The notes under the pieces were generated by a model, which had not been told where the DNA came from, made no database searches, and was given only the letters and a program-made list of their open reading frames with translations. Position numbers and translations under genes: made by a program. From NCBI GenBank assembly GCA_947467625.1, contig CANIJN010000027.1, positions 1 to 34,338 of the forward strand: 34,338 bases of DNA. The letters are read 5' to 3'. This DNA is from Opitutia bacterium (GTDB taxonomy: Bacteria; Verrucomicrobiota; Verrucomicrobiia; Opitutales; Opitutaceae). This document shows, piece by piece, positions 8,737 to 34,253 of this stretch (its first letter is position 1; every line of letters begins with the position of its first letter).

Positions 8737-8747
8737 TTTTTCCTTCC

Positions 8748-10478: not shown

Positions 10479-10573
10479 TGCGCCCCTGCCTCGGAGCAAA
10501 TGGCCGCCGGAAATCGTGAATTTGGGCATCGGGGTTCTCGAAATGTGCAGCTACGTCATGAATGGTTTGTTTC

Positions 10574-10587: not shown

Positions 10588-10748
10588 ATGCGCGATGCTC
10601 GCCGCCCAAATTAAAGATTTCCTGCGCGGCGCGTAACCGCCCCCCCTTTTCGCGCTGAACCATACGCTCGGCTCTGCCGCCGCCGAGCGCATTTTTTGCA
10701 AGCTGCCGGGAAATCCTCCTCCGCCCCAATGACCTCCCCACTCCTCCC

Positions 10749-12425: not shown

Positions 12426-12623
12426 GCCTGCTCAATCACGGACGTCACTTCCCATGGTATCCCCTGCTCCGCACCCTCTACGCCAGTGGGCACAAACGCC
12501 CGATGGGCATGAACGAATCGAAAGAGCTACCTCATTTTCCGCTTCCGATAAATCTTCTGCACGGGCTGGCCGCTGTGCCCGCATGACCACGAGCGCACCA
12601 TTCGCTCCGCCTCATTTTTACAC

Positions 12624-16247: not shown

Positions 16248-16902
16248 AATTTTTCTGTCCGGAGTGCCGGATGTCTTTCGCTTCGTAAAGGTAGACGACT
16301 TCTTCGGCGATGCTCGTAGCGTGATCGGCAATACGTTCGATCGATTTTGAAATCACCATCAGATTGAGACAACGCGTGATCGTCGGAGGGCTCTCCACCA
16401 TAAAACTCGAAAGTTCGCGGTGGAGTTGCCGGTTGAGGTCATCAACTTCGTGGTCGCGAGGAATTACTGCCCGCGCCTTTTCCGGATCCCGGCTCACAAA
16501 CGCGGTGATCGCATCGCGCAACATTTCCAGCGACATGTGGGCCATCCGGGGCAGGTCAATATACGCTTTCAATTGCGGCTCGGAGCCCAGCACCACGGCA
16601 CGCCGCGCCATGGTGACCGCTTCGTCCCCGACCCGCTCAAGATTTCCCGAGATCTTCATCGCCACGGTAATCAGCCGGAGCTCGGTGGCGAGCGGAGCCT
16701 TGGCGAGCAAGTGGAGGGCTGTATCATCGATCTCGATTTCGAATTGGTCGAGGATGTTGTCGTCAGACTGCACTTGGAGGGCGAGCGCATCGTCCCGCTC
16801 GACGAGGGCACGCATCGCCCGGGCGACGGCTGATTCCGCATGGCTCGCCATCGCAAGGAGGCTCTCCTTGAGGTGGGTCATTTCTTGGCTGTAGTGGGTC
16901 AT
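16222..16902 (-). CDS. phoU: Phosphate transport regulator PhoU
   Basis: The protein is 226 residues from the ATG at 16902. The open frame extends to 16992, but that part overlaps the end of pstB and does not resemble PhoU. The start MTHYSQEMTHLKESLLAMASHAESAVARAMRAL is the usual first helix. ISGNLERVGDEAVTMARRAV and ISKSIERIADHATSIAEEVVY are the two E(R)xxDxxxN/T metal-cluster helices of the duplicated PhoU fold. PhoU links the Pst transporter to PhoR and keeps the regulon off when phosphate is plentiful. It sits in the standard pstSCAB-phoU order, with pstB ending 13 bp upstream and phoB overlapping its end. Confidence 0.95.
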   Translation of the reverse strand: MTHYSQEMTHLKESLLAMASHAESAVARAMRALVERDDALALQVQSDDNILDQFEIEIDDTALHLLAKAPLATELRLITVAMKISGNLERVGDEAVTMARRAVVLGSEPQLKAYIDLPRMAHMSLEMLRDAITAFVSRDPEKARAVIPRDHEVDDLNRQLHRELSSFMVESPPTITRCLNLMVISKSIERIADHATSIAEEVVYLYEAKDIRHSGQKNYETENPGR

Positions 16903-16915
16903 GCGGGTAAAGAAC

Positions 16916-17812
16916 TTAGCCGAAGCGACCGGAAACATACGCTTCGGTCTGGGCATTGGCAGGCTTGGTAAAGATGTCGCGGGTGTCGGCAAACTCGATG
17001 AGTTTACCGAGATAGAAAAATGCGGTTTTATCCGAGCAACGCGCCGCCTGCTGCATGTTGTGCGTCACGATGATGATCGTGAAGCGCGAGCGCAGCTCTT
17101 GGATCAGCTCCTCGACTTTGGCCGTCGCCACCGGATCGAGCGCGGAGCAGGGCTCGTCCATCAAGATCACTTCGGGCTCGACGGCGATGGCGCGGGCGAT
17201 GCACAGGCGTTGTTGTTGACCACCGGACAGTCCCAATCCGCTGGCCCCGAGACGATCCTTCACTTCGTCCCAGAGGGCGGCACCGCGCAGGGACTTCTCC
17301 ACGATCTCGTCGAGCTTCGCTGAGTCATTCATCCCCTGCAGCCGCAGACCAAAGGTGATGTTCTCGTAGATCGATTTGGGGAAGGGATTCGATTTCTGAA
17401 ACACCATGCCCACCCGCTTGCGCAGCTCGATCACATCGACGTCGGGCTGGTAGATGTCCACTCCATGGATCTTGATCGTGCCGCGAGCGACGCGCGTGCC
17501 GTCGATCAAGTCGTTCATCCGATTCAAGCACCGCAGGAGTGTGGATTTGCCGCAACCGGAAGGACCGATGAACGCGGTGACATTCTTTGCCTCGATCTTG
17601 AGGTTGATGTCGTGCAGCGCCTGCGACGTGTTGTAGAAAAAATCCAAGTGGGAAATATCCACGAGGGTTTTACCAATCGGCGCAGTCGAGGCACCGGGGC
17701 CGGCGGCCGATGGTACAAACGACGGCATGGGGCGAACGGAGGGTTTTTCCGCCGAGGACTTGGCGGGGGCGGAAGGAGGTGTGTCCATGAGAATGGGGGC
17801 GGCGATCACCAT
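16916..17812 (-). CDS. pstB: Phosphate ABC transporter ATP-binding protein
   Basis: The 298-residue protein has all ABC ATPase motifs: Walker [10 protein letters not shown] (83-91), Q-loop [18 protein letters not shown] typical of PstB, signature LSGGQQQR, Walker B VILMDEP and the switch His in [16 protein letters not shown]. The N-terminus carries about 45 extra low-complexity residues rich in Pro, Ala and Ser before the core starts at [13 protein letters not shown]; a second ATG at 17788 would shorten this only slightly. The ATG overlaps the pstA stop by seven bases, so translation is coupled. It powers phosphate import through PstC/PstA. Confidence 0.96.
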
Positions 17813-18849
17813 TTGTAGCGGCTGCGAAGCTTGTTGCGGAGAATGATCGAACTCGCGGCGATCAATGCCACGACCAAGAGGAAGACAAAGGCCGTGCCGT
17901 ATTGCACGCGCTCCGTGTATTCGTTCTGCGGAATCTTCGAGCTCACGACGTAAATATGATATGGCAGCGCCATCACGCCCTGAAGAAAGAAGTCGCCCGC
18001 TTTATCGACGTCCCACGGCAGCTTGTCGCGCACGACATACGCGGCGGTGAACATGATGGGCGCCGTTTCCCCCGCCACCCGCGCGATACCGAGGATCGAA
18101 GAGGTCAGAATTCCCGGCAGCGCATAGGGCACCACATTCAGTCGAATCGTCTGCCACTTCGTCGCCCCGAGTGCGAGGGACCCTTCGCGAAATCCCTTGG
18201 GCACCGCCTTCAGGGACTCTTCGCTGGCCGTGATCACCACCGGAAGCACCATAAACGCGAGCGTGAACCAGCCGGCGAGTAGCGAGACATGCCAGCCGAA
18301 AGATATCACGAACATGCCAAAACCAAAGAGGCCAAAAACGATCGAGGGCACCCCAGCCAAATTCAAAATAGCGAGCCTCACAAACCGGATAAACATACCG
18401 TCCCGCGCGTATTCGTTGAGGTAAATCGCCGCGCACACCCCGAGCACGAGTGCGATGGTCATCGAGCCTATCACCAACAGGACGGTCCCCACGATACAGG
18501 GGAAAATCCCGCCGGCCGAGTACACATAACTCTCGGACTTCACCTTGGCGGCCGCCGGATATTTTTCCTTGAAGGCGCGAAACTCACGGTCGCCCATCTC
18601 ATGTTTTTTTCCCTCGAATTCAAAAATGTAGAGCGATTCGGGCGCCTCCGTGAAAAAGGTCGTGTTAATAAACGGCGCCTCAGCCTTGAACACCGTGCCC
18701 GCGCCCTTGAAGAAGATCGTCCCGAACACGCCGAGACCGCACGCGAGCACGAGATAAGTCGCGGCACGAAACACCCAGAACGTCGCTCGTTCCGAGCGGC
18801 GGGCGGCGTTGGGTTGGCTCTGAAAAAGATGGGCGGCGGGCGCGCTCAT
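17806..18849 (-). CDS. pstA: Phosphate ABC transporter permease PstA
   Basis: The 347-residue membrane protein has six predicted spans and the permease coupling motif [46 protein letters not shown] is a PstA hallmark. It is about 50 residues longer than the E. coli protein. The extra length lies between the first and second spans (about residues 55-112: [24 protein letters not shown]... [11 protein letters not shown]) and should face the periplasm. It begins three bases after the pstC stop and overlaps pstB. Confidence 0.95.
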
Positions 18850-18852
18850 AGT

Positions 18853-20466
18853 TCAGCCGATGGAAATCCGATACTTGCGGACGATTTTTTGCGCCGCGTA
18901 GTTAATGATCAGCGAGAGGACGAACAGCACGAGACCCACCACGAAGAGTGCTCGATAGTGGATACTGCCCCGCACCACCTCACCCATTTCCTGGGCGATG
19001 ATACCTGTCATGGTGTGCACCGGTTGCGTCACCACCGAAAGGCCGTCCGTAAAATCAGGAATGGCGATCCGGTTGCCTGCACAGAGTAGCACCACCATGG
19101 TCTCGCCGACCACTCGTCCCAGACCCAAGAGCACGGCGGAAATAATGCCGGAAAGCGATGCGGGCACGATGATCCTCACGATGGTCTGCAAACGAGAGGC
19201 TCCCAGCGCAAATGACGCCTCTTTCAGAGCCCGCGGCACGTTGTTCAGGGCATCTTCGGCGAGCGTGAAAATCGTCGGCACCGCGATGAGCGCGAGCAGA
19301 CAGCCGGCGGTGAGAATGTTCAACCGCTCGCTGTAGGGGAAGCCCGGCACCCACGACAACCAAGAGAACTGCGAGAGTGCCCGGAGCGCCTGACCGAGGA
19401 CGGCGATCCCGAAAAACCCCAGTACCACCGAGGGAATCGCCGAGATAAATTCGATACAGGGCTTGATGACGCGTTGTTCCCGCAACGACGCGATTTGGTT
19501 GATGTAAATCGCTGCGCCCACGCCCAACGGCACAGCCAAGGTCAAGGCCACGATCGAGACCATCAGCGAGCCAATGAACAGCGGGATCACGCCATACCAA
19601 TCCTGCCAGAAACTCGCCGTGAGCCACTGCCGGCCAAACACAAATGACGAGACGGTCTTCCACGCGGGAATGGGCAGCGTGTAGTCCCACGTCTCCAAGC
19701 TGCGCTCGACGGACGGCAAACGTGCGAGGTAGTCGCGCGTCAATTGTTTCAGTCGCTCCATCCGCGCGACGAGTTCCGGCGTCGGCGGCACGGGCGCTCC
19801 TTCCAGACTCGCCGTCAAGGCTCGGCTAAACTCCCGATTGGCCTCCTTAAAAGCCGGCAGCGTCGCTAGCAGCGGTTTCAACTCCGCCGCAAAATCCGTT
19901 TCCTCGATTTTGACCGCGGCCGCCTCGGCGGTTTTACCTTCGGCCAGCAACTGCGCACGCTCTTCTTTTTTGTCTCCGGTAACAATGAACTTGGTTTTGA
20001 TCGCAGTCGCTTGCTCGGTAAGGTCCGACAATAGGCTTCGCACGGGATCGACTGTGCTGGAAAACGTGTCGGAAAATTTGTCAAAGTTCGCGAGCGCCGC
20101 GTTGGCCTCGTCGAGCGACAGCTTCCGTCCTTCGGTCAACGCAGTGAGCTGCCGCAGCCGCAAATCGGAAAGGTAGCGGGTGAGGGCGGTGTGATCGTCC
20201 ACCTCGGTGCGGATGAAATCCACATATTCCAGACCAGCCTGTCGGTAAACCTGCAGACTCTGACGGTTTTGGGCGAAAAAACCTAACCCTTCCTGCATCA
20301 GAAAAAAGGTGATGAGGGTCAGCACCACGATAGCCACGACCGCATTGCCCCCGAAAAAGGCCTTGATCGTATCATCCACCGTCAACCCAAGCAGACGCAG
20401 TCGCTTCTTTTGGATCGCGAATCCGGCGGGTGCGGCGGGAGCCGCTATGGTGGTTGGCTCGCTCAT
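18853..20466 (-). CDS. pstC: Phosphate ABC transporter permease PstC with extended periplasmic domain
   Basis: The protein is 537 residues from the ATG at 20466 (MSEPTTIAAP); the frame continues to 20550 but without features. The first span is near residues 40-60. The permease core begins near residue 300 with IPLFIGSLMVSIVALTLAVPLGVGAAIYI and carries the coupling motif RALKEASFALGASRLQTIVRIIVPASLSGI and GLGRVVGETMVVLLCAGN. Between them is a mostly helical, charged stretch of about 220 residues (TALTEGRKLSLDEANAALAN and similar). E. coli PstC (319 residues) has no such insert. It should be periplasmic, where PstS docks. A PhoB-like site lies about 50 bp upstream. Confidence 0.94.
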   Translation of the reverse strand: MSEPTTIAAPAAPAGFAIQKKRLRLLGLTVDDTIKAFFGGNAVVAIVVLTLITFFLMQEGLGFFAQNRQSLQVYRQAGLEYVDFIRTEVDDHTALTRYLSDLRLRQLTALTEGRKLSLDEANAALANFDKFSDTFSSTVDPVRSLLSDLTEQATAIKTKFIVTGDKKEERAQLLAEGKTAEAAAVKIEETDFAAELKPLLATLPAFKEANREFSRALTASLEGAPVPPTPELVARMERLKQLTRDYLARLPSVERSLETWDYTLPIPAWKTVSSFVFGRQWLTASFWQDWYGVIPLFIGSLMVSIVALTLAVPLGVGAAIYINQIASLREQRVIKPCIEFISAIPSVVLGFFGIAVLGQALRALSQFSWLSWVPGFPYSERLNILTAGCLLALIAVPTIFTLAEDALNNVPRALKEASFALGASRLQTIVRIIVPASLSGIISAVLLGLGRVVGETMVVLLCAGNRIAIPDFTDGLSVVTQPVHTMTGIIAQEMGEVVRGSIHYRALFVVGLVLFVLSLIINYAAQKIVRKYRISIG

Positions 20467-20507
20467 GCGTTCGCGTACGAAGACGCCGAGGGCGCCACGT
20501 TTCGTCA

Positions 20508-20536
20508 AGCGACGTGCTGTTACAATCCCGTGACGC
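20508..20536 (-). promoter_or_regulatory. Candidate Pho box upstream of pstC
   Basis: Read on the minus strand, GCGTCAC (20536-20530), TTGTAAC (20525-20519) and CGTCGCT (20514-20508) start exactly 11 bases apart. PhoB binds 7-bp repeats spaced by 4 bp in this way. The site ends about 41 bases before the pstC ATG and would give the pstCAB-phoU-phoBR genes their own phosphate-responsive promoter downstream of the pstS terminator. I see no convincing -10 element, so confidence is moderate. Confidence 0.5.
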
Positions 20537-20680
20537 CTGGGTAAGCTCAACTGCGCCCCGCCCGCCCCGCTTTTCTACACCCGGGCGCTCAACTACTTGC
20601 TCAGCGGCCTCGCAAGCATTGCCCCGTGCCACGCACCGTTCGACAGCCCCCGTCATTCACCCTCGGAAAGGCACGCAGGC

Positions 20681-21124: not shown

Positions 21125-21934
21125 TCAGCGGATCGAGACAAAGCCGATCTTCTCGGCAATCTTCTGACCAGCGTCACTGAGGGTAAATTCGAGAAACTTT
21201 GCCGCCTCACCGGAGGCCTCACCGTTGGTGTAGTAGAACGTCGGCCGGGCGTAGGGATAAGACTTGTCCTGCACCGTTTTCTTCGTCGGGAGGATGCCGT
21301 CAATGGACACGACTTTGATTCCCTCGGCTTGAATATAGGCGAGCCCCACGTAACCGATGCCCGACGGATTCTTGGCCGTCTCGGCCGCGATCTGCTCATT
21401 GCCCGCCATCTTCTGTGAGGACGTGGCGTAGTCGCGTTTGTTCATCGCGAGATCCTTCCAGTCAGAGTAGGTGCCGGACGACGTGTTGCGCGTGTAGATG
21501 GAGATCTTGCCGGGCTTACCACCGACCGCGGACCAATCGGTGATGTCACCGGCGAAGATCTGCTCCACCTGTTTCTTCGACAGCTTAGCGATCGGGCTGT
21601 TGGCATTCACGACGACGGCCATGCCGTCGTAGGCGACGATGATGGGCTTCAGCGTAACTCCCTTGGCGCTCGCCGCTGACATTTCAGTGGGTTTCGCGCG
21701 GCGCGAGCTCATGCCGAGTTGGGCGGTGCCGTCGATCACGGCGGCAATGCCGGTCGTGGATCCTTCAGCGGCGATTTCAAAAGAAACGCCGGGGTGCTTC
21801 GCCTTGTATTCTTCAGCGAGCGTTGGGACGAGCTTGGCACCCAAGGTGTCGGACCCCTTGATGACGAGTTTGGTGTCGGCGCGGACGCCGGTGGCGGCGA
21901 TCGCCGCAACGAGGAGGAGGAGAGCTTTATTCAT
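21125..21934 (-). CDS. pstS: Periplasmic phosphate-binding protein
   Basis: The 269-residue protein has a signal peptide (MNKALLLLVAAIAATGVRA) and the typical phosphate contacts: KGSDTLG, EGSTTGIAAVIDG, MSSRRAKPTE and RNTSSGTYSDW. The C-terminal half contains PSGIGYVGLAY and PYARPTFYYTNG, usual for the shorter PstS type. It captures phosphate in the periplasm for PstC/PstA/PstB. It lies 30 bp downstream of the porin gene on the same strand and is followed by a strong terminator, so porin and PstS form a bicistronic unit driven from the Pho box near 23300. Confidence 0.96.
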   Translation of the reverse strand: MNKALLLLVAAIAATGVRADTKLVIKGSDTLGAKLVPTLAEEYKAKHPGVSFEIAAEGSTTGIAAVIDGTAQLGMSSRRAKPTEMSAASAKGVTLKPIIVAYDGMAVVVNANSPIAKLSKKQVEQIFAGDITDWSAVGGKPGKISIYTRNTSSGTYSDWKDLAMNKRDYATSSQKMAGNEQIAAETAKNPSGIGYVGLAYIQAEGIKVVSIDGILPTKKTVQDKSYPYARPTFYYTNGEASGEAAKFLEFTLSDAGQKIAEKIGFVSIR

Positions 21935-21964: not shown

Positions 21965-23236
21965 TTAGAACTGAAGCTGCATTTGGGAGCGGACGCCAAT
22001 GACCTTGGCTTCGGCTGGTGCGCCCGTGAGGGTTTCCTTGGTCTTGCCCGAGACGAGACCGAGTTGGAGCTTCAGGTCGTTGCCCCGGAGGTAATAGTTC
22101 CCACCGAAATACCACTCTTCGGATTTGTTCATCGTACCACCGTTCGGCGAGGAACGGATCACGTCGGAGAGCGTCACGCCACGACGGTCGGAGTTAAGCC
22201 CGGCATAGCGCACGACGAGTTCGATCGTGTCCGTCAGGAGGAGAGACGGCTGAAGATAGAAACCCGTGGGCGTGGCATCGGTCGTGGCATTGAATCCACG
22301 ATCAACTTTGGCCGTGAGATATTCGCCCATTAAGCTGAAGCGGCCCGCGGTGAGATTGGCGTAGAGCGAATGGATGCGGAGGTTGAAACCTTTGCCGAAG
22401 TTGGTCGTGCCCGAGCCGCCCTGGTCGGGCAGATAGCCCGTGCCGGCGCCCACGATCCACGTGCCGTTGTTGGCGAGTTTACCGGTGAAACCGAAATTGG
22501 CCCACAGCGCGGGACGATTGGTGGTGTTGTCACCGGTAGCCGAGGCCGCAGTGAAGCTCTCGCCGCGCTCTGGCGTGGTCACCGCGGCGCTGTAAACAAT
22601 GCCGTTGGTCTGGGAGAGTTCCTTCTTGCCGTCGAGGAAGGCGCCGATGCGGTAGCTCGCGGCACCGAGGCGGCGGCCGTTGTTAGACTCGACGAAGTAG
22701 CGCGTGACCGACGAGCGCTCGATCGAGCGGATATCGCCGCTGGAGCCGCGCTCTTCCGCCGCGAGGTTGACCTTGCGCAGGCCGAAATTAAACGCGAGGT
22801 CCGGGGTCGGCTTCCACTCGATGATCGCGTCATCGTAGCTGCCGCCGGCAAGATCGTAGGTCATCGTGGCGCCCCAATTGCCGCCGACGCCCGCCTTGAA
22901 CGTGATATACATGCGGCGGAGAAACGCGTGGTCGGTCGCGACCGGTCCGGCCGCCGTCGAGTTTTTGATGTCCGTGTCGAGGCTAGCGTATTGCACCTGC
23001 ATGCGCATGCCGACGCTGAGGCGATCGGTCGCTTTACCGCCGCCCACGGCCTTGGCTGGAATGGTGTTTTGATCCCGGACGAGATCAGCACGAAGATCTT
23101 CAGCCTCCTGATTGGTAAGAATACCCTTGCGGATGAGCGCATCAAGGAGAGGGCCGCTGTCCTGTGCGAGCACCGCTGAAGCGGACAAGAGCACGCCGCC
23201 GATTGCGGCGAGGTATTTAGATTTGAGTTTAGCCAT
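21965..23236 (-). CDS. OprO/OprP-like phosphate-selective porin
   Basis: The protein is 423 residues from the ATG at 23236. The frame extends to 23419, but that part covers the promoter region. It has a signal peptide (KYLAAIGGVLLSASAVLAQ), then a short helical segment (LLDALIRKGILTNQEAEDLRADL) common in porins of the O/P family, then a barrel with AFLRRMYITFKAGVGGNWGATMTYD and a C-terminus ending in Phe (SQMQLQF). These porins form outer-membrane trimers that pass phosphate or polyphosphate. Its place directly upstream of pstS and behind a Pho box supports a phosphate role; the exact selectivity is not visible from sequence. Confidence 0.88.
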   Translation of the reverse strand: MAKLKSKYLAAIGGVLLSASAVLAQDSGPLLDALIRKGILTNQEAEDLRADLVRDQNTIPAKAVGGGKATDRLSVGMRMQVQYASLDTDIKNSTAAGPVATDHAFLRRMYITFKAGVGGNWGATMTYDLAGGSYDDAIIEWKPTPDLAFNFGLRKVNLAAEERGSSGDIRSIERSSVTRYFVESNNGRRLGAASYRIGAFLDGKKELSQTNGIVYSAAVTTPERGESFTAASATGDNTTNRPALWANFGFTGKLANNGTWIVGAGTGYLPDQGGSGTTNFGKGFNLRIHSLYANLTAGRFSLMGEYLTAKVDRGFNATTDATPTGFYLQPSLLLTDTIELVVRYAGLNSDRRGVTLSDVIRSSPNGGTMNKSEEWYFGGNYYLRGNDLKLQLGLVSGKTKETLTGAPAEAKVIGVRSQMQLQF

Positions 23237-23291: not shown

Positions 23292-23320
23292 GTTACGAAC
23301 AGATGGCGAAACGGTGACAA
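23292..23320 (-). promoter_or_regulatory. Candidate Pho box for porin-pstS
   Basis: On the minus strand the 7-mers TTGTCAC (23320-23314), TCGCCAT (23309-23303) and TCGTAAC (23298-23292) begin exactly 11 bases apart. The first is close to the PhoB half-site consensus and the others are degenerate. Position relative to the TATGAT at 23281-23276 is as expected for an activator that contacts RNA polymerase at the -35 region. Confidence 0.65.
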
Positions 23321-23379: not shown

Positions 23380-23419
23380 CCTTCACTGATTCGTCACTCA
23401 CCCGACGCCGTTTTGTCAC
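23380..23419 (+). promoter_or_regulatory. Candidate four-repeat Pho box for the receptor/phosphatase cluster
   Basis: Four 7-mers, CCTTCAC (23380), TCGTCAC (23391), CCGACGC (23402) and TTGTCAC (23413), start at exact 11-bp intervals with 4-bp spacers. Two are near-perfect PhoB half sites. The last ends 31 bases before the receptor ATG; a weak -10-like CATGTT lies at 23433-23438. It points away from the porin site at 23292-23320, so the gap is a divergent PhoB-controlled promoter region. Confidence 0.7.
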
Positions 23420-23450: not shown

Positions 23451-26366
23451 ATGCACTTCAACGCACTCACCTGCACGCTCGCTCACTCAACAGCGCGACG
23501 GCTCCTCGCCGTAGCCGCTCTCGCCCTCCTCGCGGTGGCCCTGCTCTCGTCCACGGCTTTTTCACAAGCTGCTGCGGGTAGCATCACCGGCCGCGTCTCC
23601 GACGCCGTCACGGGCAAGTCGCTCCAAGGCGCCGTCGTCAAACTGCTCGGCACCACTGCCGTCGCCTATACCGACGCCGAGGGACGCTTCTCGTTGCCGG
23701 GCCTCGCGGCCGGCAGCTACCGGGTGGAAGTAGACTATGTCGGCCTCGACGCTTACACGACCAACGTCGCTGTTTCCGGCGGGCTGACCGCGATCGTGAA
23801 TGCCCTGTTGGAGAGCAAAGTGATGAAGATGGCGTCATTCACCGTCGCCGAGTCCGTGCGCGGCCAGGCTCTTGCGATCAACCAGCAGAAGACCGCCAGC
23901 GGCCTCGTGAACATCGTTTCCTAGGAAACCTTCAGCACCAATCTCGGAGGCAATATTGGTTTCACCCTCCAGCAGCTGCCCGGCCTCAGTGTCGACGAGG
24001 GCGAGGACGGCGAGCCATCCGGCGTCAACATCCGCGGTCTCGAAGCCAAATACAATTCGGTGCAGGTCGACGGTAACCGTATGCCGACCTCCGGCAACTC
24101 GCGCGCCTTCTCGATCGGCCAGCTCAACGCCGAGAGCGTGAGCAACATCGAGGTCATCAAGGCCGCCACGCCCGACCGCGACGGCGACGCCCTCGGCGGC
24201 ATCATCAACGTCGTCTCCCGCTCCGCCTTCCAGCGCGAAGGTCGTTCCGTCGAACTGAACCTCGGCGGCCTCTACTACGACATGCGCGAGAAATGGAACT
24301 ACAACGCCGCGCTCAACTACCTCGACATCTTTTCGGTGGGCGGCGGTCAGAAAAATCTCGGCGTCGGCCTCAATCTCGCTTGGTCCGAAAACTCCCGCGA
24401 CTACGACAACCTCGACAAGGACTACGCCTACCTCCGCCCCCAGAACGAGCCCGCCCTAGGCCTCACCGCGCCCCTTTACTTCCACACCAACGCGGCCCCG
24501 CAGACCAACTACCGCGAGACCAGCTCGCGCAGTGTGAACCTCGCGCTCGACTACCGACTCAGCCCAGCGACCTCCGTCTACCTGCGCCCGTTCTTCCGCC
24601 ACAACGACACCGACGCCGAGAAACCGCGCGCCCGCTACTACATCAACGCCAACCATAATTTCGCCGCCGCCACCGGCACTAAGACCATCGCCCAAGCCAC
24701 CTACAACACCGGCCGCAGCCTGCCCACCACGCTCAACGAAATGCGTTACCAAAACGACCTGAGCGAAACCGACAACGAGGTCTACGGCTCCTCTTTCGGC
24801 GGCCGCCACGAGATGGATAACACCACCGTGCTGTTCGATCTTTTCCTCTCCAATAACGAATCCAATCGCGACCGTTCCCTCGCCTACGTCATCCGCAACC
24901 AGGGTTTCAGTTTCGCGTACGATATGACCAACCGTTCGAACCCGATCTACACGATCCTCAATGGCAAGGATCCTTACGACGTCACCAGCATCAACCGCGG
25001 CGATCTCACGCTCAATCCCCGCGACGGCGCCGAAAAAGCGTCCAGCGCGAAAGTCGACGTCGAGCGCAAATTCTCCTCTGACCGGCTGACCGGTTCGTTC
25101 AAGGTCGGCGCCAAATTCCGCTCCAACGTCAAGGAGCAGGACCAAGCCTCGATCGTTTACCAGACCGGCACCAACGCGAGCGGCTTCCCCTACGCGAGCC
25201 TCCTGCAGCGCACCGACTACAAGACCTTCGGTTCTCTCCCGATCTACCAGTATCCCGATCTGAACAAGGTCGAGGCTCTGCTGCGCTCGAGCCCGAACCT
25301 CTTCGTGTCAGCCCCCGCCACCGTGTTGCTCAACGATGTGCTCAACGACTACCGCGCGCAGGAGGACGTCGCCGCCGCTTACGGCATGGGTACGTTCCGC
25401 TTCGGCCGTACGACGCTGATCACCGGCCTCCGTGCCGAGCAAAACACCTTCAAAGCGCGCACCTATCGCTACAACAGCAACGCCCCGGCCGCCCCCACCA
25501 CCGTCAACGCCAAGCGTGATTACACGATGTGGCTCCCGGGGCTCCACCTCCGCCACGAGTTGGGCAAGAACCTCATTCTCCGCGAAAGCTACAACCGCAG
25601 CTACAGCCGTCCCGACGTCAACAACCTCGTCGCTGGCCTCAACCTCGACACCAACACCGGCAATATCTCCGGCGGGAACCCGAACCTCGAACCTTCCACC
25701 TCGGACAACTACGACGTCCAGCTGGAATACTACACCCCGAAGGGCGGCCTCTACTCGGCCGGCGTCTTCTACAAAAAGCTCAAGGGGTTTTACTATTCGA
25801 CGACCCTGCGGTTCACCAACACCGACGCCAATGGCTACCCCATTCCCGATGCCAACGGCCCCCGCATTTACTCGTCCACCGATAACGCCCTCGGCGCGCT
25901 CAACTACGGCCTCGAGTTGATCGCCCGCCAGAAACTCCTCTTTTTGCCCAAGCCATTCGATGGCCTCGGGGTCTCCCTCTCCGCGACGATCACCAAGAGC
26001 GATGGAAAATATCCCGGACGCTTGAGCGAGAATCTCCCCACGTACGGTTTCAGCGATCGCATCTACAACGCCTCCGTCGAATACGCCGGCGGCGGGTTCC
26101 GCGGGCGTCTCGCCTACACCTACCGCTCCGATTTCCTCGAAGGCCTCGATGTCGACAACACCTTCGATGACTACTTCGGCGCCTACAAATCCCTCAACTG
26201 GGACTCCAGCTACCAAGTCATGAAAAACACGCGAGTGTTCTTCAACGTGAACAACCTTACCAACGAGCCCCAGATTTCCTACCAGGGCTACAAGCACCCC
26301 GACAATCCCGAGGACATCACCACCTACGGCTGGCGAGCGACCACCGGCGTCTCAATCCGATTCTGA
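23451..26366 (+). pseudogene. TonB-dependent receptor interrupted by an in-frame amber codon
   Basis: The frame opens at 23451 with a signal sequence (LLAVAALALLAVALLSSTAFSQ), a carboxypeptidase-regulatory-like domain (GSITGRVSDAVTGKSLQGAV ... YTDAEGRFSLPGLAAGSYRV) and the start of the plug (GQALAINQQKTASGLVNIVS). A TAG at 23922-23924 then stops it. In the same frame, without any indel, the plug resumes (ETFSTNLGGNIGFTLQQLPG, VNIRGLEAKYNSVQVDGNRM) and a full barrel follows to 26366, ending TTGVSIRF. The whole would be 971 residues plus the stop. Downstream ATGs such as 24060 lack a signal peptide and lie inside the plug, so restart would not give a working receptor. The change could be a recent null mutation, a sequencing error, or a read-through or suppressed codon. 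Confidence 0.85.
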
Positions 26367-26380
26367 TCCCGCTTCAGGCC

Positions 26381-26416
26381 GGGCCGGTCCTCGGGGACCG
26401 GCCCATTCTTTTGTTC
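26381..26416 (+). terminator. Rho-independent terminator after the amber-interrupted receptor
   Basis: GGGCCGGTCC (26381-26390) pairs perfectly with 26395-26404 across a TCGG loop and is followed by the T-rich ATTCTTTTGTT. It begins 15 bases after the receptor stop. It would reduce or stop transcription into the phosphatase gene that starts at 26447, so the downstream genes may be read by partial read-through or from their own promoter. Confidence 0.8.
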
Positions 26417-26446
26417 GCAGCTTCCATTGTCGCCACGTCCTTTGCC

Positions 26447-27763
26447 ATGCGCCACCGCCTTCGTGTTTCACTCGCCGCGTTTCTCCTCGTCACCTCGCTG
26501 CTGCCCGCTGCCACCACCATTTTGCGCGGTCCCTATCTCCAGCTCGCCACCCCGACGAGCATGGTCGTCCGCTGGCGCACCGACGCCACGGAGGGTTCCC
26601 ACGTCCGCTATGGGCTAGCGAAGGAAGCGCTCGCCTCCTCGGCCAACGCCTTCGGCATCTCCTCCGAGCACACCGTGCAGCTCTCCGGCCTGCAGCCGGG
26701 CACCCGCTACTTCTACTCGGTCGGCGGTGCCCGACAAGACACCGACGGCGACGGCAAGCCGCTCAAATCCCCCGTGTATTCCTTCGTCACACCGCCGCCC
26801 ACCGGGCCAGCCAGTCCGACGCGTGTTTGGGTGCTCGGCGATCCCGGCACCAAGGGCTCCGGCCAGCTCGCCGTGCGCGACGCCTACCACAAATTCAACG
26901 GAGAACGCGCCACCGATCTGTGGCTCATGCTCGGCGACAACGCCTACCCTGATGGCACCGACGCCGATTACCAAAAAGCGCTCTTCGAGGTCTATCCCGA
27001 GACGCTCCGCACCTCGCCCCTTTGGCCCGCTCTCGGCAATCACGATGGTCACAGCGCCAATTCCGTCACGCAGTCCGGCGTCTACTATGACATCTTCACG
27101 CTGCCCACGCGCGGCCAAGCCGGCGGCATCGCCTCGGGCACCGAGGCGTACTACTCGTTCGACTACGCGAACATTCACTTCGTGTGCCTCGACTCCGAGG
27201 ACTCGCCGCGCGCGGCCGACGGCGCCATGGCCCAGTGGCTCAAGGCCGATCTCGCGGCGACGACGCGCGACTGGATCATCGCGTTCTTCCATCATCCGAC
27301 CTACTCGAAGGGCACGCACGATTCCGACCGCGAGGGCCGCCTCGTCGATATGCGGCAAAATTTCCTCCCGATCCTCGAGGCCGGCGGCGTCGACGTGGTG
27401 CTCACGGGCCACTCGCACGTCTACGAGCGCTCCTTTTTCGTCGACGGCCACTACGGGAAGAGCGCGGACTTCGATCCTGCCCTCCACGTGAAACAGCCGG
27501 GCAACGGCCGTGCTGACGGCGATGGCGTTTATCGCAAACCCCGCGGTCGCGCCCCCCACGCCGGCGAAGTCTCCGTCGTCAGCGGCAGCGCCGGCTCCGC
27601 CGGCTCCAAGACCAAACCCCCGGCGCTCGACCACCGTGCGATGTGCGTCTCGTTCAACGAACTCGGCTCCGTCGTTCTCGATATCGACGGCCTCCGCTTA
27701 GACCTGACGTTCATCAACGAGCGCGCCGAGAAACGCGACTGGTTCGCCATCGAAAAGAAATAG
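26447..27763 (+). CDS. Secreted purple-acid-phosphatase-like metallophosphoesterase
   Basis: The protein is 438 residues from the ATG at 26447; a TTG at 26411 lies inside the terminator and is unlikely. A signal peptide (RVSLAAFLLVTSLLPAA) leads to a fibronectin-III-like N-terminal domain (LRGPYLQLATPTSMVVRWRT ... LSGLQPGTRYFYSVG). The catalytic domain has all five purple acid phosphatase blocks: GDPG (D132), GDNAY (D164, Y167), GNHD (N198, H199), FFHHP (H282, H283) and GHSH (H322, H324). The enzyme should release phosphate from phosphomonoesters outside the cytoplasm. It lies between two TonB receptors downstream of a Pho box, which supports a phosphate-starvation role. Confidence 0.92.
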   Translation: MRHRLRVSLAAFLLVTSLLPAATTILRGPYLQLATPTSMVVRWRTDATEGSHVRYGLAKEALASSANAFGISSEHTVQLSGLQPGTRYFYSVGGARQDTDGDGKPLKSPVYSFVTPPPTGPASPTRVWVLGDPGTKGSGQLAVRDAYHKFNGERATDLWLMLGDNAYPDGTDADYQKALFEVYPETLRTSPLWPALGNHDGHSANSVTQSGVYYDIFTLPTRGQAGGIASGTEAYYSFDYANIHFVCLDSEDSPRAADGAMAQWLKADLAATTRDWIIAFFHHPTYSKGTHDSDREGRLVDMRQNFLPILEAGGVDVVLTGHSHVYERSFFVDGHYGKSADFDPALHVKQPGNGRADGDGVYRKPRGRAPHAGEVSVVSGSAGSAGSKTKPPALDHRAMCVSFNELGSVVLDIDGLRLDLTFINERAEKRDWFAIEKK

Positions 27764-27790
27764 CTGCCACTGCACCAACACTCTACGCAT

Positions 27791-30577
27791 ATGAACCTCT
27801 CCCTCTTTCGCTACCTGCGCCTCGCCGGGCTAGCTGGCCTAATCGGTTTGCTCGCTCCGGCGCACGCCCAGTCCGTTGCGACGGCCTCCTTGCGGGGCGT
27901 TGTCCTCAACGACGCCACGGGTAATTTCGTCCAAGGCGCCCAACTCTCGCTCGTGGGCACCACGCGCACTGCCATCACTGACAGCCAAGGCAAATTCCTC
28001 TTTGGCGCCCTCGCAGCGGGCGACTACCGCCTGCGGGTCGACTCGGCCGGCACCGATGCGAAGGAGTTTCCCGTCACCGTGCTCGCGGGCGTGACTGCGC
28101 CGCTCACGCTGCGCCTCGCGTCCGAAATCATCGCCATGGAGAAACTCATGGTCACCGCGCAGGCCGAAGGGCAGTCGCAGGCGCTGAATTTCCAGAAGAA
28201 CTCCGAGAACATCCGCAAGGTCGCGTCTCTCGATGCGCTCGCCAATTCCCGCCTCGGCGAAGTCGGCGAAGTCCTCCAGTCGATGCCCGGCCTCTACCTC
28301 GAAATCAGCACCCACCAGCCCGTGCGCCCCAATATCCGCGGTCTCTCCTCGGAGTTTAACTCGATCACCTTCGACGGCGTGCGTATCGGCAACACCAACA
28401 ACGACCGGTCCGACGGCGTGAGTGGTTATCCGGCCGAGAGCCTCTCGCGCATCGAGCTCATGAAATCCGTGACGCCCGACATGGAGGGCGACGCGATCGG
28501 CGGCAGCATCAACCTCGTCTCCAAGCGCGCCTTCGATCTCTCCGAGCGTCTGTTCAAGTTCAACCTCGGCGGAGCCTACAACAACCAGCAGCAAAACTGG
28601 GATAAGCAGCTCAATATCGAATACGCCGACCGCTACGGTCCCGAAGGGCGCCTCGGCGTTTATCAGTCGATCAACCACTATCGTTCCGACCGCGGTTACC
28701 ACACCTCAAGCATCAGTTACACCGTCGATGCCGCGGATAATTTCAACATCGCCACCTACACCTTGCAGGACCGCATCGAGGACGATTCGTGGAAGCTCAA
28801 ATACACCGGCAGCGTCGATTACAAACTCAGCGACCGAACCGTTCTCTGGGTGCGCGGCATCTACAGCAACGACTCACGCTCGCTCGAGGATTACATCGCG
28901 GTCTACCGCCCCGGCACCCGCACCAACATCACGCCCGACTCCGCCAACTCCCGCAATGGCCGCGTCGACACCAGCCGCTCTTTCCGCGAACCCATTAGCG
29001 TCAGCGGCCAGATTGCCGGCGGCATGGAAAATAAGTTCGACCGCTGGACCCTCGACTCGAAGGTCAGCTACAACCGCGCGACCAACCAATACACGCAGAC
29101 CTTCACGCCCGTCTTCAGCCTCAACGGCGTCGATCTTTCCTACGACCGCACCGTGCGCGAATTCCCCCTCTTCCGCGTGGACAACGCGGTGAACCTCAAC
29201 GATCCGACGAAATACGTGCACACGAGCGTCGCACGCAATCAGCACCCTTCGCGCGATCAGGAATACACCTTCGATTTCAACGCCCGCCGCGAGCTCGACG
29301 AACTGCCTTTCAAGGCGAGCCTCAAGACCGGAGCGCGCGCCAAGCTCCGTAGCTGGGTCTTCGGCGGCGATCCCGCACTCGGCAACTGGACCTACACCGG
29401 CCCGCAGTCCGCCGCCGCCATGTCCGAGATCTATGTCAACGACCGCTTCTTCCATGAGGGCGGCAGCCGCGTCGTGTTCCCTGCCGTGCAACCCAACATC
29501 GCGAAATTCCTCGAGGCCTTCTACGCGCGGAATTCTGAATACACCCGCAACGACAACACCTCCGCTATCCTCATCGAATCCAACCGCAAGAGTTCCACGG
29601 AAGACATCTATGCGACGTATCTGATGGGGAGCGCGACCTTCGGCCGACTCAACGTCGTGACCGGCGCGCGCGCCGAGCGCACCGCCTACACCGGCAAAGC
29701 CCGCCAGCTCACCACGCCGCGCGGCATCCTCACGAAATCCACCATCGTGGAAAACTCCACGAGCTACACCAACGTGCTCCCCGGCGTGCACTTCAACTAC
29801 GGCCTCGCACCCAACGTCGTGCTGCGCCTCTCCGCCAATCGTACCGTCGCCCGTCCCAGTCCCGCGGCCATGCTCCCCACCCGCCGAATCGACGACGACG
29901 CGCGCACCATCACCGACGGTAATCCGGATCTGAAGGTCACCACGTCGGATAATTTCGACCTCAGCGCCGAATACTACCTGAAGCCCCTCGGCGTGATCTC
30001 CGTCGGTGCGTTTCGCAAATCCATCGCCGGGTTTTATTTTAGCACCGCTTCGACCGTGGTGGATGGCGAATACGCCGGCTATCGCCTCACGCGCCAAGAG
30101 ATGGGCAAAGGCGGCAAAGTCAGCGGCGTCGAAGTCGAGTGGCAACAGCGTCTCAGTTTCCTGCCAGGCGCGTTCAGCGGCCTCGGCTTCGGCACCAACT
30201 ATACTTGGCTCAGCTCCGAGGGAAAGTATCCCACGCGCCCCACCGATGCGCTTACGTTCATCGGCACCGCCAAGGTCACGGGAAACTTCAACGTCTCCTA
30301 CGTCCACCGCGGCCTCGACCTCCGACTCTTTTACAACACCCGGGGCGACTACCTCAGCTCGGTCGGCGCCCGCCGCACGCTGGACGTGTTCGAAAAAGAA
30401 CGCGCCACCCTCGATTTCTCCGCGAAATACCGATGGAGCAAACGCCTCTCCACCTACGCGAGCGCGAAGAACCTCACCGACGCGCCGAAAATTTCCTTCC
30501 AGGGCAATGCCTCGAATCCGAACGCCGTGCGCTACTACGATTTCTCCGTGAACTTCGGCGTCACGCTCGACCTGTGA
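27791..30577 (+). CDS. TonB-dependent receptor with carboxypeptidase-regulatory-like domain
   Basis: The 928-residue protein has a signal peptide (LRLAGLAGLIGLLAPAHAQ), a carboxypeptidase-regulatory-like domain (ASLRGVVLNDATGNFVQGAQ ... ITDSQGKFLFGALAAGDYRL) and a plug (EVGEVLQSMPGLYLEIS, PNIRGLSSEFNSITFDGVRI, SRIELMKSVTPDMEGDAIGG). A barrel follows, ending FSVNFGVTLDL. It shares this layout with the interrupted receptor at 23451, but the two are clearly diverged. It starts 27 bp after the phosphatase gene, and the next phosphoesterase starts within its stop codon (GTGA), so it is co-expressed with enzymes acting on phosphoesters. I infer that it takes up a phosphorylated compound or a phosphatase product; the ligand is unknown. 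Confidence 0.93.
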   Translation: MNLSLFRYLRLAGLAGLIGLLAPAHAQSVATASLRGVVLNDATGNFVQGAQLSLVGTTRTAITDSQGKFLFGALAAGDYRLRVDSAGTDAKEFPVTVLAGVTAPLTLRLASEIIAMEKLMVTAQAEGQSQALNFQKNSENIRKVASLDALANSRLGEVGEVLQSMPGLYLEISTHQPVRPNIRGLSSEFNSITFDGVRIGNTNNDRSDGVSGYPAESLSRIELMKSVTPDMEGDAIGGSINLVSKRAFDLSERLFKFNLGGAYNNQQQNWDKQLNIEYADRYGPEGRLGVYQSINHYRSDRGYHTSSISYTVDAADNFNIATYTLQDRIEDDSWKLKYTGSVDYKLSDRTVLWVRGIYSNDSRSLEDYIAVYRPGTRTNITPDSANSRNGRVDTSRSFREPISVSGQIAGGMENKFDRWTLDSKVSYNRATNQYTQTFTPVFSLNGVDLSYDRTVREFPLFRVDNAVNLNDPTKYVHTSVARNQHPSRDQEYTFDFNARRELDELPFKASLKTGARAKLRSWVFGGDPALGNWTYTGPQSAAAMSEIYVNDRFFHEGGSRVVFPAVQPNIAKFLEAFYARNSEYTRNDNTSAILIESNRKSSTEDIYATYLMGSATFGRLNVVTGARAERTAYTGKARQLTTPRGILTKSTIVENSTSYTNVLPGVHFNYGLAPNVVLRLSANRTVARPSPAAMLPTRRIDDDARTITDGNPDLKVTTSDNFDLSAEYYLKPLGVISVGAFRKSIAGFYFSTASTVVDGEYAGYRLTRQEMGKGGKVSGVEVEWQQRLSFLPGAFSGLGFGTNYTWLSSEGKYPTRPTDALTFIGTAKVTGNFNVSYVHRGLDLRLFYNTRGDYLSSVGARRTLDVFEKERATLDFSAKYRWSKRLSTYASAKNLTDAPKISFQGNASNPNAVRYYDFSVNFGVTLDL

Positions 30578-31650
30578 ATCACCTTCGCCTGACGTTCGCC
30601 CGCGCCCTGGTCGCCACCCTGTTCGCCCTCGGCGTTTCTCTCCGCGGCGCCTCACTCGATGTGCCGCCGCCCGGCGCCTTCACCATCGTCGTCATCCCCG
30701 ACACCCAGGGCTACCGCGGTCGCGCCACGAAGAGCACGCCCGAGAGCACCGCTCCGCTGACCAATCCTGTTTTCCAAAACCACACCCGCTGGATCGCGGA
30801 AAATATCCGCGCCCAAAACATCGTTTTCGTGAGTCACGTCGGCGACATTGTGGACATCGACAACGCAGAGCAGTGGCAGCTGGCGCGCGAGTGTCTCGAC
30901 CGCCTGCACGGTGTCGTGCCCTACGGCCTCGTCGTCGGTAATCACGACATGAAGAACAACGGCGACGCCACGCTCTTCCAGCGGTTCTTCCCCGCCGAGC
31001 GCTTCCGAGCTTTCCCATGGTATGGCGGTGCCTACACGCACGACCGACCCGACCAGCACGTCTCCGCCAACAATGCCAACAGCTACCAGCTTTTCACCGC
31101 GGCCGGGCTCGACTTCGTTCACCTCAACCTCGAGTGCAACGCCCCTGACGATGTGCTCGCGTGGGCCAGTCGCATTCTGACGAAATATGCTGCGCGCCGT
31201 GCCCTCGTCAGCACCCACATGGATCTGGGGCCGTTGAATAAGCCGACCGCTGACGACGGTTTTTTCAAAGACCCCAAGGGCCGCATGACTTGGGTCAAGG
31301 TCCACGGCAAACGCGGCAACAGCCCCGCGCAAATGTGGGAGAAACTCTACTCGAAGCACGCCAACCTAGCCTTCGTCTTCTCCGGCGACCAGAGCCGCAC
31401 CACCGCAATGCGCGTCGCCGCGCAGGGCAGCATGGGCAACTTCGTTCACTCACTGCTCTCCGACTACACCTCGTCGGGCCCACTGCGGCTCTATCGTTTC
31501 ATCCCGGCAGAAAACAAGGTCCGGGTCATTACGTTCGACACGACGAAGCGCCAGCTCGTCGAAAACACGGGCTACGTCGCCGACCCCGCCGAACACCAAT
31601 TCACCGTGGACTACGCCATGTCCGAACCCGCTTCCCGATCCATCCCATGA
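30574..31650 (+). CDS. Secreted calcineurin-like phosphoesterase with altered last metal motif
   Basis: The protein has 358 residues from a GTG at 30574, which overlaps the receptor stop as GTGA. The long upstream extension of this frame is antisense-like sequence within the receptor gene. A signal sequence (ALVATLFALGVSLRGA) precedes the metallophosphoesterase motifs: PDTQ (D43), GDIVD (D91), GNHD (N123, H124) and STHMD (H215). Where the family normally has GHxH there is GDQS (G271, D272, S274), so both histidines are absent. The GTGA and ATGA couplings on either side show that it is made together with a receptor and another phosphatase. It may still bind one metal, may use a different substrate, or may belong to a subfamily in which this motif is normally changed. 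Confidence 0.85.
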   Translation: MNHLRLTFARALVATLFALGVSLRGASLDVPPPGAFTIVVIPDTQGYRGRATKSTPESTAPLTNPVFQNHTRWIAENIRAQNIVFVSHVGDIVDIDNAEQWQLARECLDRLHGVVPYGLVVGNHDMKNNGDATLFQRFFPAERFRAFPWYGGAYTHDRPDQHVSANNANSYQLFTAAGLDFVHLNLECNAPDDVLAWASRILTKYAARRALVSTHMDLGPLNKPTADDGFFKDPKGRMTWVKVHGKRGNSPAQMWEKLYSKHANLAFVFSGDQSRTTAMRVAAQGSMGNFVHSLLSDYTSSGPLRLYRFIPAENKVRVITFDTTKRQLVENTGYVADPAEHQFTVDYAMSEPASRSIP

Positions 31651-33017
31651 AGCGCCTGCCCCACACGCTCCCGTTCCTCACGCTCCTCGCGCTGCCACTC
31701 TCGGCGCATGAAGGCCATCCGCACGTTCCGCCCGCACTCTACGCCGACAAACTCGCGTTCGCTCCGCGCCCCCTGCCCGACCGCATCGTCCTCACGTGGC
31801 GCGGCGATCCCGCGACGACGCAGGCCGTCACTTGGCGCACGGATACGACGATCACCAGGGCCGTCGCGGAGTTTGCCGTCGCCAACGAAGCGGGCCGCAC
31901 GCTCAAAGGCGAATCCGTGACCGCGCGCACCGAGCCGCTCACGACCGATCTCAGCGAGGCGCACTACCACTCCGCAGAGTTCACCGGACTCACACCCGAG
32001 ACGCTCTACGCCTACCGCGTGGGCGACGGTGTGAATTTCAGCGAGTGGTTCCACTTCCGCACGGCGAGTCGCGATGCGAAAAAATTTACGTTCGTCTATT
32101 TTGGCGACGCGCAGAACGACGTGCGCACGCATTGGTCGCGCGTCTTCCGCGAGGCGTTTCGTGAGGCTCCGCGCGCGGCCTTCACGCTCCATGCCGGCGA
32201 TCTCATCAACAACGCGCACCGGGACGGCCAGTGGGGCGAGTGGCACGGCGCGCCCGCGTGGGTCAACGCCACGATCCCTGTCGTGCCCACCCCCGGGAAC
32301 CACGAGTTTGCCAAGCTCAATGAGAAGGATGCTAAAGCGCCGCCCGCGCTCAGCGTGCAATGGCGGCCGCAGTTCACGTTGCCGGAGCACGGTCCCGCCG
32401 AGCTCGCCGAGACCTGCTACTGGTTCGACTATCAGGGCACGCGCATCATCTCGCTCGATTCGAACCGACTGCAAGAGGAGCAGGTCCCGTGGTTGCGCGC
32501 GGTATTGGCGAAAAACCCACAGCGGTGGACGGTCCTCACGTTTCACCATCCGATTTTCTCGCCGGCCAACGACCGCGACAACCCCAAGCTCCGTGCGCTC
32601 TGGAAGCCGCTCATCGACGAGTTCAAAGTCGATCTCGTGCTCACCGGTCACGACCACACCTACGCGCGCAGCGGCGATATGGCCGGTCGCGCCCGCGTCG
32701 GTGCCCTCAACGCCGCGAAGGGCTACAACCAGGTTTACGATCCCGCGATCGGCACCGTCTACGTCGTCTCGGTGAGCGGTCCAAAAATGTATGACCTGAT
32801 GTCCGACGCGTGGGCCGTGCGCACCGCCGAGGACACGCAGCTTTTCCAGATCATCACGGTGGACGGCGGCGAGCTGCGCTACGAAGCGCGTACCGCGACC
32901 AATCGCCTCTACGACGCCTTCACGCTTCGCAAGCGCACCGGTCGCGCGAATGAGCTCCTAGAAAACCTCCCGCTCGAGACGCGTCGCCCGCCGAAAGCTG
33001 CCGTCGGCAAAGAGTAA
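31647..33017 (+). CDS. Secreted purple-acid-phosphatase-like protein lacking the metal-ligand Tyr
   Basis: The protein is 456 residues from the ATG at 31647, which overlaps the preceding stop as ATGA. A signal peptide (LPFLTLLALPLSA) is followed by a His-rich stretch (HEGHPHVPP), a fibronectin-III-like domain (PDRIVLTWRGDPATTQAVTW ... FTGLTPETLYAYRVG) and a catalytic domain with GDAQ (D154), GDLIN (D185), GNHE (N218, H219), FHHP (H300, H301) and GHDH (H335, H337). In true purple acid phosphatases the second block is GDxxY, and the Tyr binds iron and gives the colour; here that position is N188. It is the third phosphatase of the cluster. No clear terminator follows; the 120-bp gap downstream has two small stem-loops without T-tracts. 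Confidence 0.9.
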   Translation: MKRLPHTLPFLTLLALPLSAHEGHPHVPPALYADKLAFAPRPLPDRIVLTWRGDPATTQAVTWRTDTTITRAVAEFAVANEAGRTLKGESVTARTEPLTTDLSEAHYHSAEFTGLTPETLYAYRVGDGVNFSEWFHFRTASRDAKKFTFVYFGDAQNDVRTHWSRVFREAFREAPRAAFTLHAGDLINNAHRDGQWGEWHGAPAWVNATIPVVPTPGNHEFAKLNEKDAKAPPALSVQWRPQFTLPEHGPAELAETCYWFDYQGTRIISLDSNRLQEEQVPWLRAVLAKNPQRWTVLTFHHPIFSPANDRDNPKLRALWKPLIDEFKVDLVLTGHDHTYARSGDMAGRARVGALNAAKGYNQVYDPAIGTVYVVSVSGPKMYDLMSDAWAVRTAEDTQLFQIITVDGGELRYEARTATNRLYDAFTLRKRTGRANELLENLPLETRRPPKAAVGKE

Positions 33018-33137
33018 CCGATCTCTGGCGGTGCACTGGTTCGGATGAGGCAGGAGCCTGTGTTACGGTCCGGTGACTTTCCTCATCCAGCCGTGACCAC
33101 GGCTTGACCCATCGTGCGGGCGCACCAAACGAAACCT

Positions 33138-34253
33138 ATGAGATTCGTCCGTCCGCTTTCGTCGCTCCTCGCAGCCGTCCTTCTGAGCGCGGTGCCGCCG
33201 GTCGCCGGTGCCAACGCCGGTGCGAGCGCCAGCGCTGGCATCGACACCGCCCGTGCGCTCGCCCACGCCGCCCCCGACGCAACCTTGCGAGAAGAATTGG
33301 TCCACGACGTGGCGACATTTTTCGCCCGCCGCGGGGATAGCGCCGGAGCGCGATCCGCTGCGGCCCAACTGCCTCCGGGCCGGCAAGCCCTAGTGCTGCT
33401 CGAACTCGCCGCTCATCTGCCCGACCCGCGCAGCAAAGATGCGGAGCAACTCGCCCTCGATGCCCAGACCGCCAAAGCCCTCACCACCGACTGGCGCAAG
33501 GCCCGCGTCGCCCGACTCCTTGCGGTGACCTACGCCCGTATCGGTAAGTTCGATGCGGCCGTTGCCCTCGCCCACACGGTGCCGGACACCGAGGAAAAAG
33601 CCTCGGCCTTGCAAGCGGTGGTCGCCGAACTCAACCGTGCCGGCGAAATCGCTAAGGCGCGGGAACTGGCCGGAACGATTGAAGAAAATCGCCGCTACGG
33701 CACGTATCGTCAGAAAGCCGCCGCGCTCGCGGACACCGCGCGTACCCTCCACGCGCGCGGCAATCCCGAGGAAGCGGCGACGTTGCTCGCCCAAGCCGAA
33801 CTGCTCCTGCCCAAAAAACCGGGCTGGAGCGACGGAGGTGCTTATCGTGACGTCGCCGTCGCCGCTTACCATTGCGGGCAAAAAGAGAAAGCCGTCGAGC
33901 TGCTCACCCGGGCCGAAGCGCTGGCCCAACAGATCGCGGGACCGTGGAAAGTGACTGAACTGACCCGCATCGCGGCGGCGTGGCGCGACTGTGCCGACGT
34001 CGCCCGCTCGGCCGCACGCCTTGCAGAGGCGGCCGTCTTCCTTAAAACGCTCCCGCCGCTGGAACGTGCGGAGGAAGCCCTCGCTCTTGCTGAAGGCTGG
34101 GCGCTCGCCGGTGAATCGTTCGAGGGGAAAGCCCAAGCCCGCGCGCTCGTGACGGCCGTGCTGGCCGAAGCGGATAGTGCTGGCAGGGCGGATACGTGGC
34201 GCAAACCGCGCGTGCGCGCGTTGCTCGCGTTGGCTGAGTTGAGTGGAAAATAG
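33138..34253 (+). CDS. Secreted TPR-like helical-repeat protein of unknown function
   Basis: The protein is 371 residues from the ATG at 33138; a GTG at 33114 would add eight residues before the signal peptide. After SLLAAVLLSAVPPVAGANA the sequence is almost wholly alpha-helical and Ala/Glu-rich. It shows repeating helix pairs such as KARVARLLAVTYARIGKFDA, ALQAVVAELNRAGEIAKARE, ALADTARTLHARGNPEEAAT and VAVAAYHCGQKEKAVELLTR. The spacing and Gly/Ala positions match tetratricopeptide-like repeats. Such proteins act as scaffolds. It follows the third phosphatase by 120 bp and may or may not belong to that cluster. No catalytic motif is visible. Confidence 0.8.
   Translation: MRFVRPLSSLLAAVLLSAVPPVAGANAGASASAGIDTARALAHAAPDATLREELVHDVATFFARRGDSAGARSAAAQLPPGRQALVLLELAAHLPDPRSKDAEQLALDAQTAKALTTDWRKARVARLLAVTYARIGKFDAAVALAHTVPDTEEKASALQAVVAELNRAGEIAKARELAGTIEENRRYGTYRQKAAALADTARTLHARGNPEEAATLLAQAELLLPKKPGWSDGGAYRDVAVAAYHCGQKEKAVELLTRAEALAQQIAGPWKVTELTRIAAAWRDCADVARSAARLAEAAVFLKTLPPLERAEEALALAEGWALAGESFEGKAQARALVTAVLAEADSAGRADTWRKPRVRALLALAELSGK

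Follow-up and report, generated by a model that had tools for sequence, protein, structure and literature searches.

The window analysed here, a stretch of 34,338 nucleotides (contig CANIJN010000027.1 of assembly GCA_947467625.1) from an Opitutia bacterium of the family Opitutaceae, carries a cluster of five genes (23451-33017, +) that encode, in this order and on the same strand, a TonB-dependent receptor (TBDR1), a purple acid phosphatase (PAP1), a second TonB-dependent receptor (TBDR2), a calcineurin-like phosphoesterase (PE) and a phosphatase of the purple acid phosphatase fold (PAP2). The gene order and coordinates given in a preliminary description of this DNA were reproduced by the open reading frames (ORFs), together with the couplings at the last two junctions, where the start of PE (30574) overlaps the stop of TBDR2 as GTGA and the start of PAP2 (31647) overlaps the end of PE as ATGA. 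Judging from sequence, the cluster is probably a PhoB-controlled locus for the import and dephosphorylation of organophosphates under phosphate starvation.

Receptors and hydrolases of the cluster

TBDR1 (23451..26366, +) consists of CarboxypepD_reg, plug and barrel domains according to Pfam and TIGR01782, and TBDR2 (27791..30577, +) was likewise recognised by TIGR01782. Both receptors pass the cut-off of this model (310 bits) with 445 and 425 bits and remain far below the cut-offs of the siderophore and haem receptor models; they share about 30% identity, and a search of PDB sequences with TBDR2 at E 0.001 returned no relative. These scores bear on the possibility that the receptors supply metals, bringing in complexes of iron or zinc that are needed by the metallophosphatases or become limiting under low phosphate. 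PAP enzymes do require Fe, Zn or Mn, and many TonB-dependent receptors import iron complexes, but the contrast between the TIGR01782 scores and the siderophore and haem scores, as well as the recurrence of the arrangement with a phytase, which is a better fit to organophosphate, make metal supply very improbable.

PAP1 (26447..27763, +; its ORF stays open further upstream, to a TTG at 26411) carries the Pur_ac_phosph_N and Metallophos domains (PF16656 and PF00149) and the complete motif set GDxG/GDxxY/GNHD/HH/GHxH, as expected of a purple acid phosphatase. PAP2 (31647..33017, +) has the same two domains, aligns to PAPs and gives a predicted model that also matches the PAP fold. Thus, PAP1 has the two-domain build and the full ligand motifs of plant PAPs (kidney bean, 1kbp; wheat phytase, 6git) and PAP2 has the same fold; in contrast to the plant enzymes, PAP2 is probably not a purple enzyme of the classical type, because the metal-binding tyrosine of GDxxY is absent throughout its family (GDLIN in PAP2 itself). 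PE (30574..31650, +) is a Metallophos protein with altered metal motifs, DxQ for DxH and GDQS for GHxH. Its predicted model (pLDDT 80) is calcineurin-like, and the best matches include GpdQ (Z 19, 3.2 A over 226 residues), Lmo2642 (Z 21), Rv0805 and small PAPs (Z 19-21); PE therefore shares the fold of the GpdQ-like and class III phosphodiesterases but not their DxH and GHxH ligands, and a role as a diesterase may be proposed from the modelled structure. The metal motifs of the three hydrolases do differ from one another, as had been pointed out earlier.

The hydrolases had also been described as secreted. The N-termini of PAP1, PAP2 and PE, judged by eye, are signal-peptide-like, which agrees with export, but a surface location does not follow, since no lipobox Cys was seen, and for this reason periplasmic enzymes are more likely than surface ones. 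In several relatives (L119 200-1810, L120 5613-7247 and L136 7354-8967) PAP2 contains an insertion of about 90 residues behind GNHE, and two of these three insertions show a weak PAS-like similarity (E 0.003-0.05, below the cut-off), odd for an exported phosphatase.

Pho-box-like sites and phosphate genes

The genes of phosphate uptake and its regulation are transcribed divergently from the cluster (23236-14169), and the neighbourhood porin-pstS-pstCAB-phoU-phoBR proposed previously was recovered by Pfam matches. It comprises a phosphate-selective porin O/P family protein (21965..23236, -; PF07396), the phosphate-binding protein PstS (21125..21934, -; PF12849), the phosphate ABC transporter PstC, PstA and PstB (16916..20550, -), PhoU (16222..16992, -; PF01895), the response regulator PhoB (15561..16331, -; PF00072 and PF00486) and a PhoR-type histidine kinase (14169..15443, -; PAS-HisKA-HATPase).

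Both strands of the window were scanned with a consensus-based Pho-box score for three tandem 11-bp YTGTCAY units (maximum 21). Two sites reach 17, the only ones in the window to do so, with 0.4 expected by shuffling, and both are located inside the 215-bp divergent intergene in opposite directions. One is directed toward TBDR1 and lies 60 bp upstream of it (23391..23419, +; TCGTCAC-CCGACGC-TTGTCAC, 17/21), and the other is directed toward porin-pst (23292..23320, -; TTGTCAC-TCGCCAT-TCGTAAC, 17/21). The Pho box that the preliminary description had placed ahead of the locus is thus present, and the candidate sites have the tandem 11-bp arrangement upstream that defines a Pho regulon, as measured by a consensus-based score. 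The porin-directed site is kept in the congener G008 (19/21), and the sites ahead of 15 TBDR1 genes exceed shuffles (combined p 3e-9, the relatives not being independent of each other), although at several of the loci there is no such site. On these sequence grounds the receptor-phosphatase locus is very probably under PhoB control.

The genome holds about 105 TonB-dependent receptors, and none of 37 others examined for an upstream site reaches a score of 16. The receptor genes adjoining phosphatases or a phytase hold the top scores in the genome, namely 17 in the window, 15 on contig C93 and 15 on contig C60, with a tie at 15 for the C105 receptor, beside which no phosphatase was seen. On C93 (L287 7462-11373) a receptor gene with the same domain architecture and a Pho-box-like site upstream ends 15 bp ahead of a beta-propeller phytase gene, the only PF02333 match of the genome, while C60 (L113 4702-11091) is one run of a TonB-dependent receptor, a metallophosphoesterase, a HAD hydrolase, an MFS transporter and another HAD hydrolase. 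C93 and C60 are candidates for a second and a third phosphorus-type locus. Receptor clade alone was ruled out as a marker of phosphorus use: the close paralogues C55 and C100 have neither adjoining phosphatases nor such a site.

Another possible function of the cluster is carbon scavenging, in which oligosaccharides or phosphorylated glycans would enter through the receptors and the phosphatases would serve only to make the sugar usable by removing its phosphate. The assignment of both receptors to TIGR01782 is compatible with this, since MalA, NagA and other receptors of Xanthomonas and Caulobacter share a cluster whose substrates include maltose, chitin and xylan in addition to phytate (Tang et al. 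2012, PMC3400609); C55 and C100, which are not beside phosphatases, and a PAP2 relative inside a fucosidase cluster also speak for it. Nevertheless, the cluster encodes no carbohydrate-active enzyme (CAZyme) according to Pfam, it is associated with Pho-box-like sites and adjoins pst-phoBR, and it is precisely C55 and C100 that have no Pho-box-like site, so carbon scavenging is quite unlikely.

Conservation and history of the arrangement

The full five-gene order adjoining porin-pstS occurs in one congener, G008. Parts of it were found in the same genus on contigs that end within the cluster: pst-porin-TBDR1-PAP1-TBDR2 (G007), TBDR2-PE-PAP2 (G001) and PAP1-TBDR2 (G006). In G007 a gene of a SulP-type transporter with a cyclic-nucleotide-binding-like tail lies between the porin and TBDR1 (L116 8399-10603). 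In other Opitutaceae TBDR1 is followed directly by PAP2 (G061, G030 twice, G028, G053, G036, L160, L162 and L165), and this pair without the middle genes is also present in G004, several genera having it on its own; the order in L164 is TBDR1-TBDR2-PE-PAP2. Altogether, 16 of 30 loci (PAP2 identity about 59% or more) have a TonB-dependent receptor on the same strand ahead of PAP2, and the binomial probability is ~1e-11 even for 12 of 28, taking a rough 3% chance of a receptor as the upstream neighbour (about 105 receptors). Chance clustering is ruled out by the synteny and by this linkage. The proposal of a dedicated organic phosphorus system, for which a synteny check had been suggested, came through that check with receptors and phosphatases co-conserved, and it is well supported by context because of this co-conservation and the Pho-box-like site recurring upstream of TBDR1 in relatives.

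Outside the phylum, a Pseudomonadales metagenome-assembled genome (MAG), L171, which counts among those 16 loci, encodes a receptor 59% identical to a TBDR1, plus a PAP2 (60%). Pedobacter cryophilus (L229) possesses a looser version, TBDR-PAP2-PAP1-beta-propeller phytase, which may be a parallel assembly because its receptor is not specifically a TBDR1. When 387 genomes from the phylum of the window were scanned for PAP2, only 10 contained strong relatives. In L162 and L164 PAP2 directly adjoins genes for polyphosphate kinase. Judged by gene content, the simplest history starts from a TBDR1-PAP2 core, which in this lineage probably gained TBDR2-PE first and PAP1 afterwards.

Within about 100 bp (23850-24000) the sequence of TBDR1 itself ceases to resemble that of G008 and begins to resemble that of G007, at the position of an in-frame TAG (23922-23924) that the preliminary description did not mention. 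Upstream of the TAG the gene matches G008 at ~82% vs 72% for G007, and downstream of it G007 at 90-93% vs 68-75% for G008. The codon encodes Glu in 12 of 12 relatives, within NIVS-E-ETF or close variants (GAG in G007). Reassignment of TAG as a sense codon is unsupported, as PAP1 itself terminates in TAG. The switch and the TAG may stem from recombination between receptor genes or from a chimeric assembly of the MAG. A decaying locus, in which TBDR1 is dead and the remaining genes are being lost in this strain, would be in line with a TAG exactly at the switch, but the reading frames of the remainder of TBDR1 and of every downstream gene are uninterrupted and an assembly chimera or base error in a MAG can explain the TAG, which makes decay unlikely. 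A single in-frame TAG was also seen in each of the receptor genes at G000:C9 and G050:C10.

Several observations weigh against an organophosphate locus. The TAG splits TBDR1 at residue 158 in this assembly, and PE, in which several standard metal ligands are missing, may have weak activity or none. At G061, G053 and L165, all of them TBDR1 loci with a PAP downstream, the three-unit site scores no higher than shuffled sequence. A receptor is missing upstream of about half of the PAP2 relatives, most of the Planctomycetes ones are solitary, and one (L141, in G021) is flanked by two alpha-L-fucosidase genes and preceded by a GH95 gene, which suggests a glycan-linked use of this enzyme family. Finally, in G069, G003, G050 and G004:C328 the available sequence shows no PAP immediately behind the TBDR1 relative. 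As a tentative extension of the organophosphate reading, it may be supposed that TBDR1-PAP2 is a transferable, SusD-free cassette that imports and dephosphorylates one class of organophosphate. It would have passed between Opitutaceae and also reached Pseudomonadales (with parallel assembly in Pedobacter), and strains would exchange receptor barrels at one fixed junction with the phosphatase remaining in place.

Possible substrates and related systems

Under low phosphate, PhoB from the adjacent phoBR would bind both intergene boxes, as the sites and their conservation suggest, and would switch on porin-pst in one direction and the receptor-phosphatase operon in the other. TBDR1 and TBDR2, by their family and linkage, would take up phosphorylated organics through the outer membrane, powered by TonB. 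In the periplasm PE might cleave diesters or trim substrates, the weakest step, proposed from its phosphodiesterase-like fold, and PAP1 and PAP2, as monoesterases, would release phosphate, to be bound by PstS and enter the cell through PstCAB. The two receptors may have different ligands and the hydrolases may act one after another, as had been suggested earlier. Inositol phosphates, glycerophosphodiesters, nucleotides and phosphorylated glycans all remain candidate substrates.

Phytate or lower inositol phosphates as the specific substrate would be a sub-case of organophosphate use and not exclusive of it. The best match of PAP1 among solved sequences is the wheat purple acid phytase (E 3e-20, low identity), followed by the kidney bean PAP, PAPs of the same two types are combined with a beta-propeller phytase in P. 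cryophilus, and a low-phosphate-induced pair of TonB-dependent transporter (TBDT) and phytase is known in Flavobacterium (Fjoh_1367/1368; Lidbury et al. 2020, PMC8115612). However, the cluster itself has no phytase, and TBDR1 and TBDR2 are each only ~28% identical to the phytase-linked receptor of C93. Since the genome has this separate receptor-phytase pair, the window locus need not serve phytate, and the case for phytate as a settled substrate is weakened; such specificity is somewhat doubtful.

The principle of a receptor plus a phosphatase is already known from the two cited studies. In Flavobacterium johnsoniae the phosphate utilisation systems PUS I-IV, which resemble polysaccharide utilisation loci (PULs), have TonB transporters beside phosphomono-/diesterases and are induced by phosphate depletion; PUS I and II use SusCD (PusCD) pairs with PhoA or other diesterases, PUS III was described with a TBDT/SusC-like porin, and plant-associated strains are without Pst (PMC8115612). 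In the same study Fjoh_0542-0546 includes a CarbopepD_reg TBDT beside phoBR and an OprP-type porin. The window similarly has TonB transporters co-located with genes of phosphomono/diesterase type and, like Fjoh_0542-0546, a receptor with similar domains near phoBR and a phosphate porin. Unlike PUS I and II, no cluster protein has a SusD-family match in Pfam, and the PAP-type enzymes, two receptors per run, the full pst operon and the Verrucomicrobiota host further distinguish the window from the PUS loci. The TBDT-phytase pairs of Flavobacterium and Citromicrobium (the latter linkage in PMC3400609) have in common with the cluster a receptor directly adjoining a phosphate-releasing enzyme, and C93 is such a pair, whereas the cluster has no PF02333 match.

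The preliminary description had likened the locus to a PUL, and the analogy stands in part: an outer-membrane TonB receptor is combined with matching hydrolases, as in Bacteroidota, but SusD and CAZymes are absent, the regulator is another one and no lipoprotein-type surface hydrolase was seen. In the open-access literature no description of a TonB receptor with a phosphatase was found for Verrucomicrobiota or Opitutaceae, and this combination of receptors and phosphatases seems undescribed before.

Downstream of PAP2 a TPR-like protein with a signal-peptide-like N-terminus is encoded (33114..34253, +); the gene is also located 3' of PAP2 in G004 (77%) and L156 (92%) and is absent in G001, and its membership of the cluster is uncertain. 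At 2395-14153 divergent receptor genes accompany a sulfatase, a tannase/feruloyl esterase and a protein that matched nothing in Pfam; this is probably another nutrient locus. Rfam and tRNA scans of the whole window gave no matches.

It is not yet understood why some bacteria maintain a hundred or more TonB receptors. In this Opitutus-like genome, which may be of freshwater origin according to isolate names, the window locus together with C93 and C60 points to a small subset of receptors, marked by Pho boxes, that serves phosphorus and not carbon or iron. The PUS idea is thereby extended beyond Bacteroidota, and concrete receptor-enzyme pairs are offered for organic phosphorus turnover in lakes.

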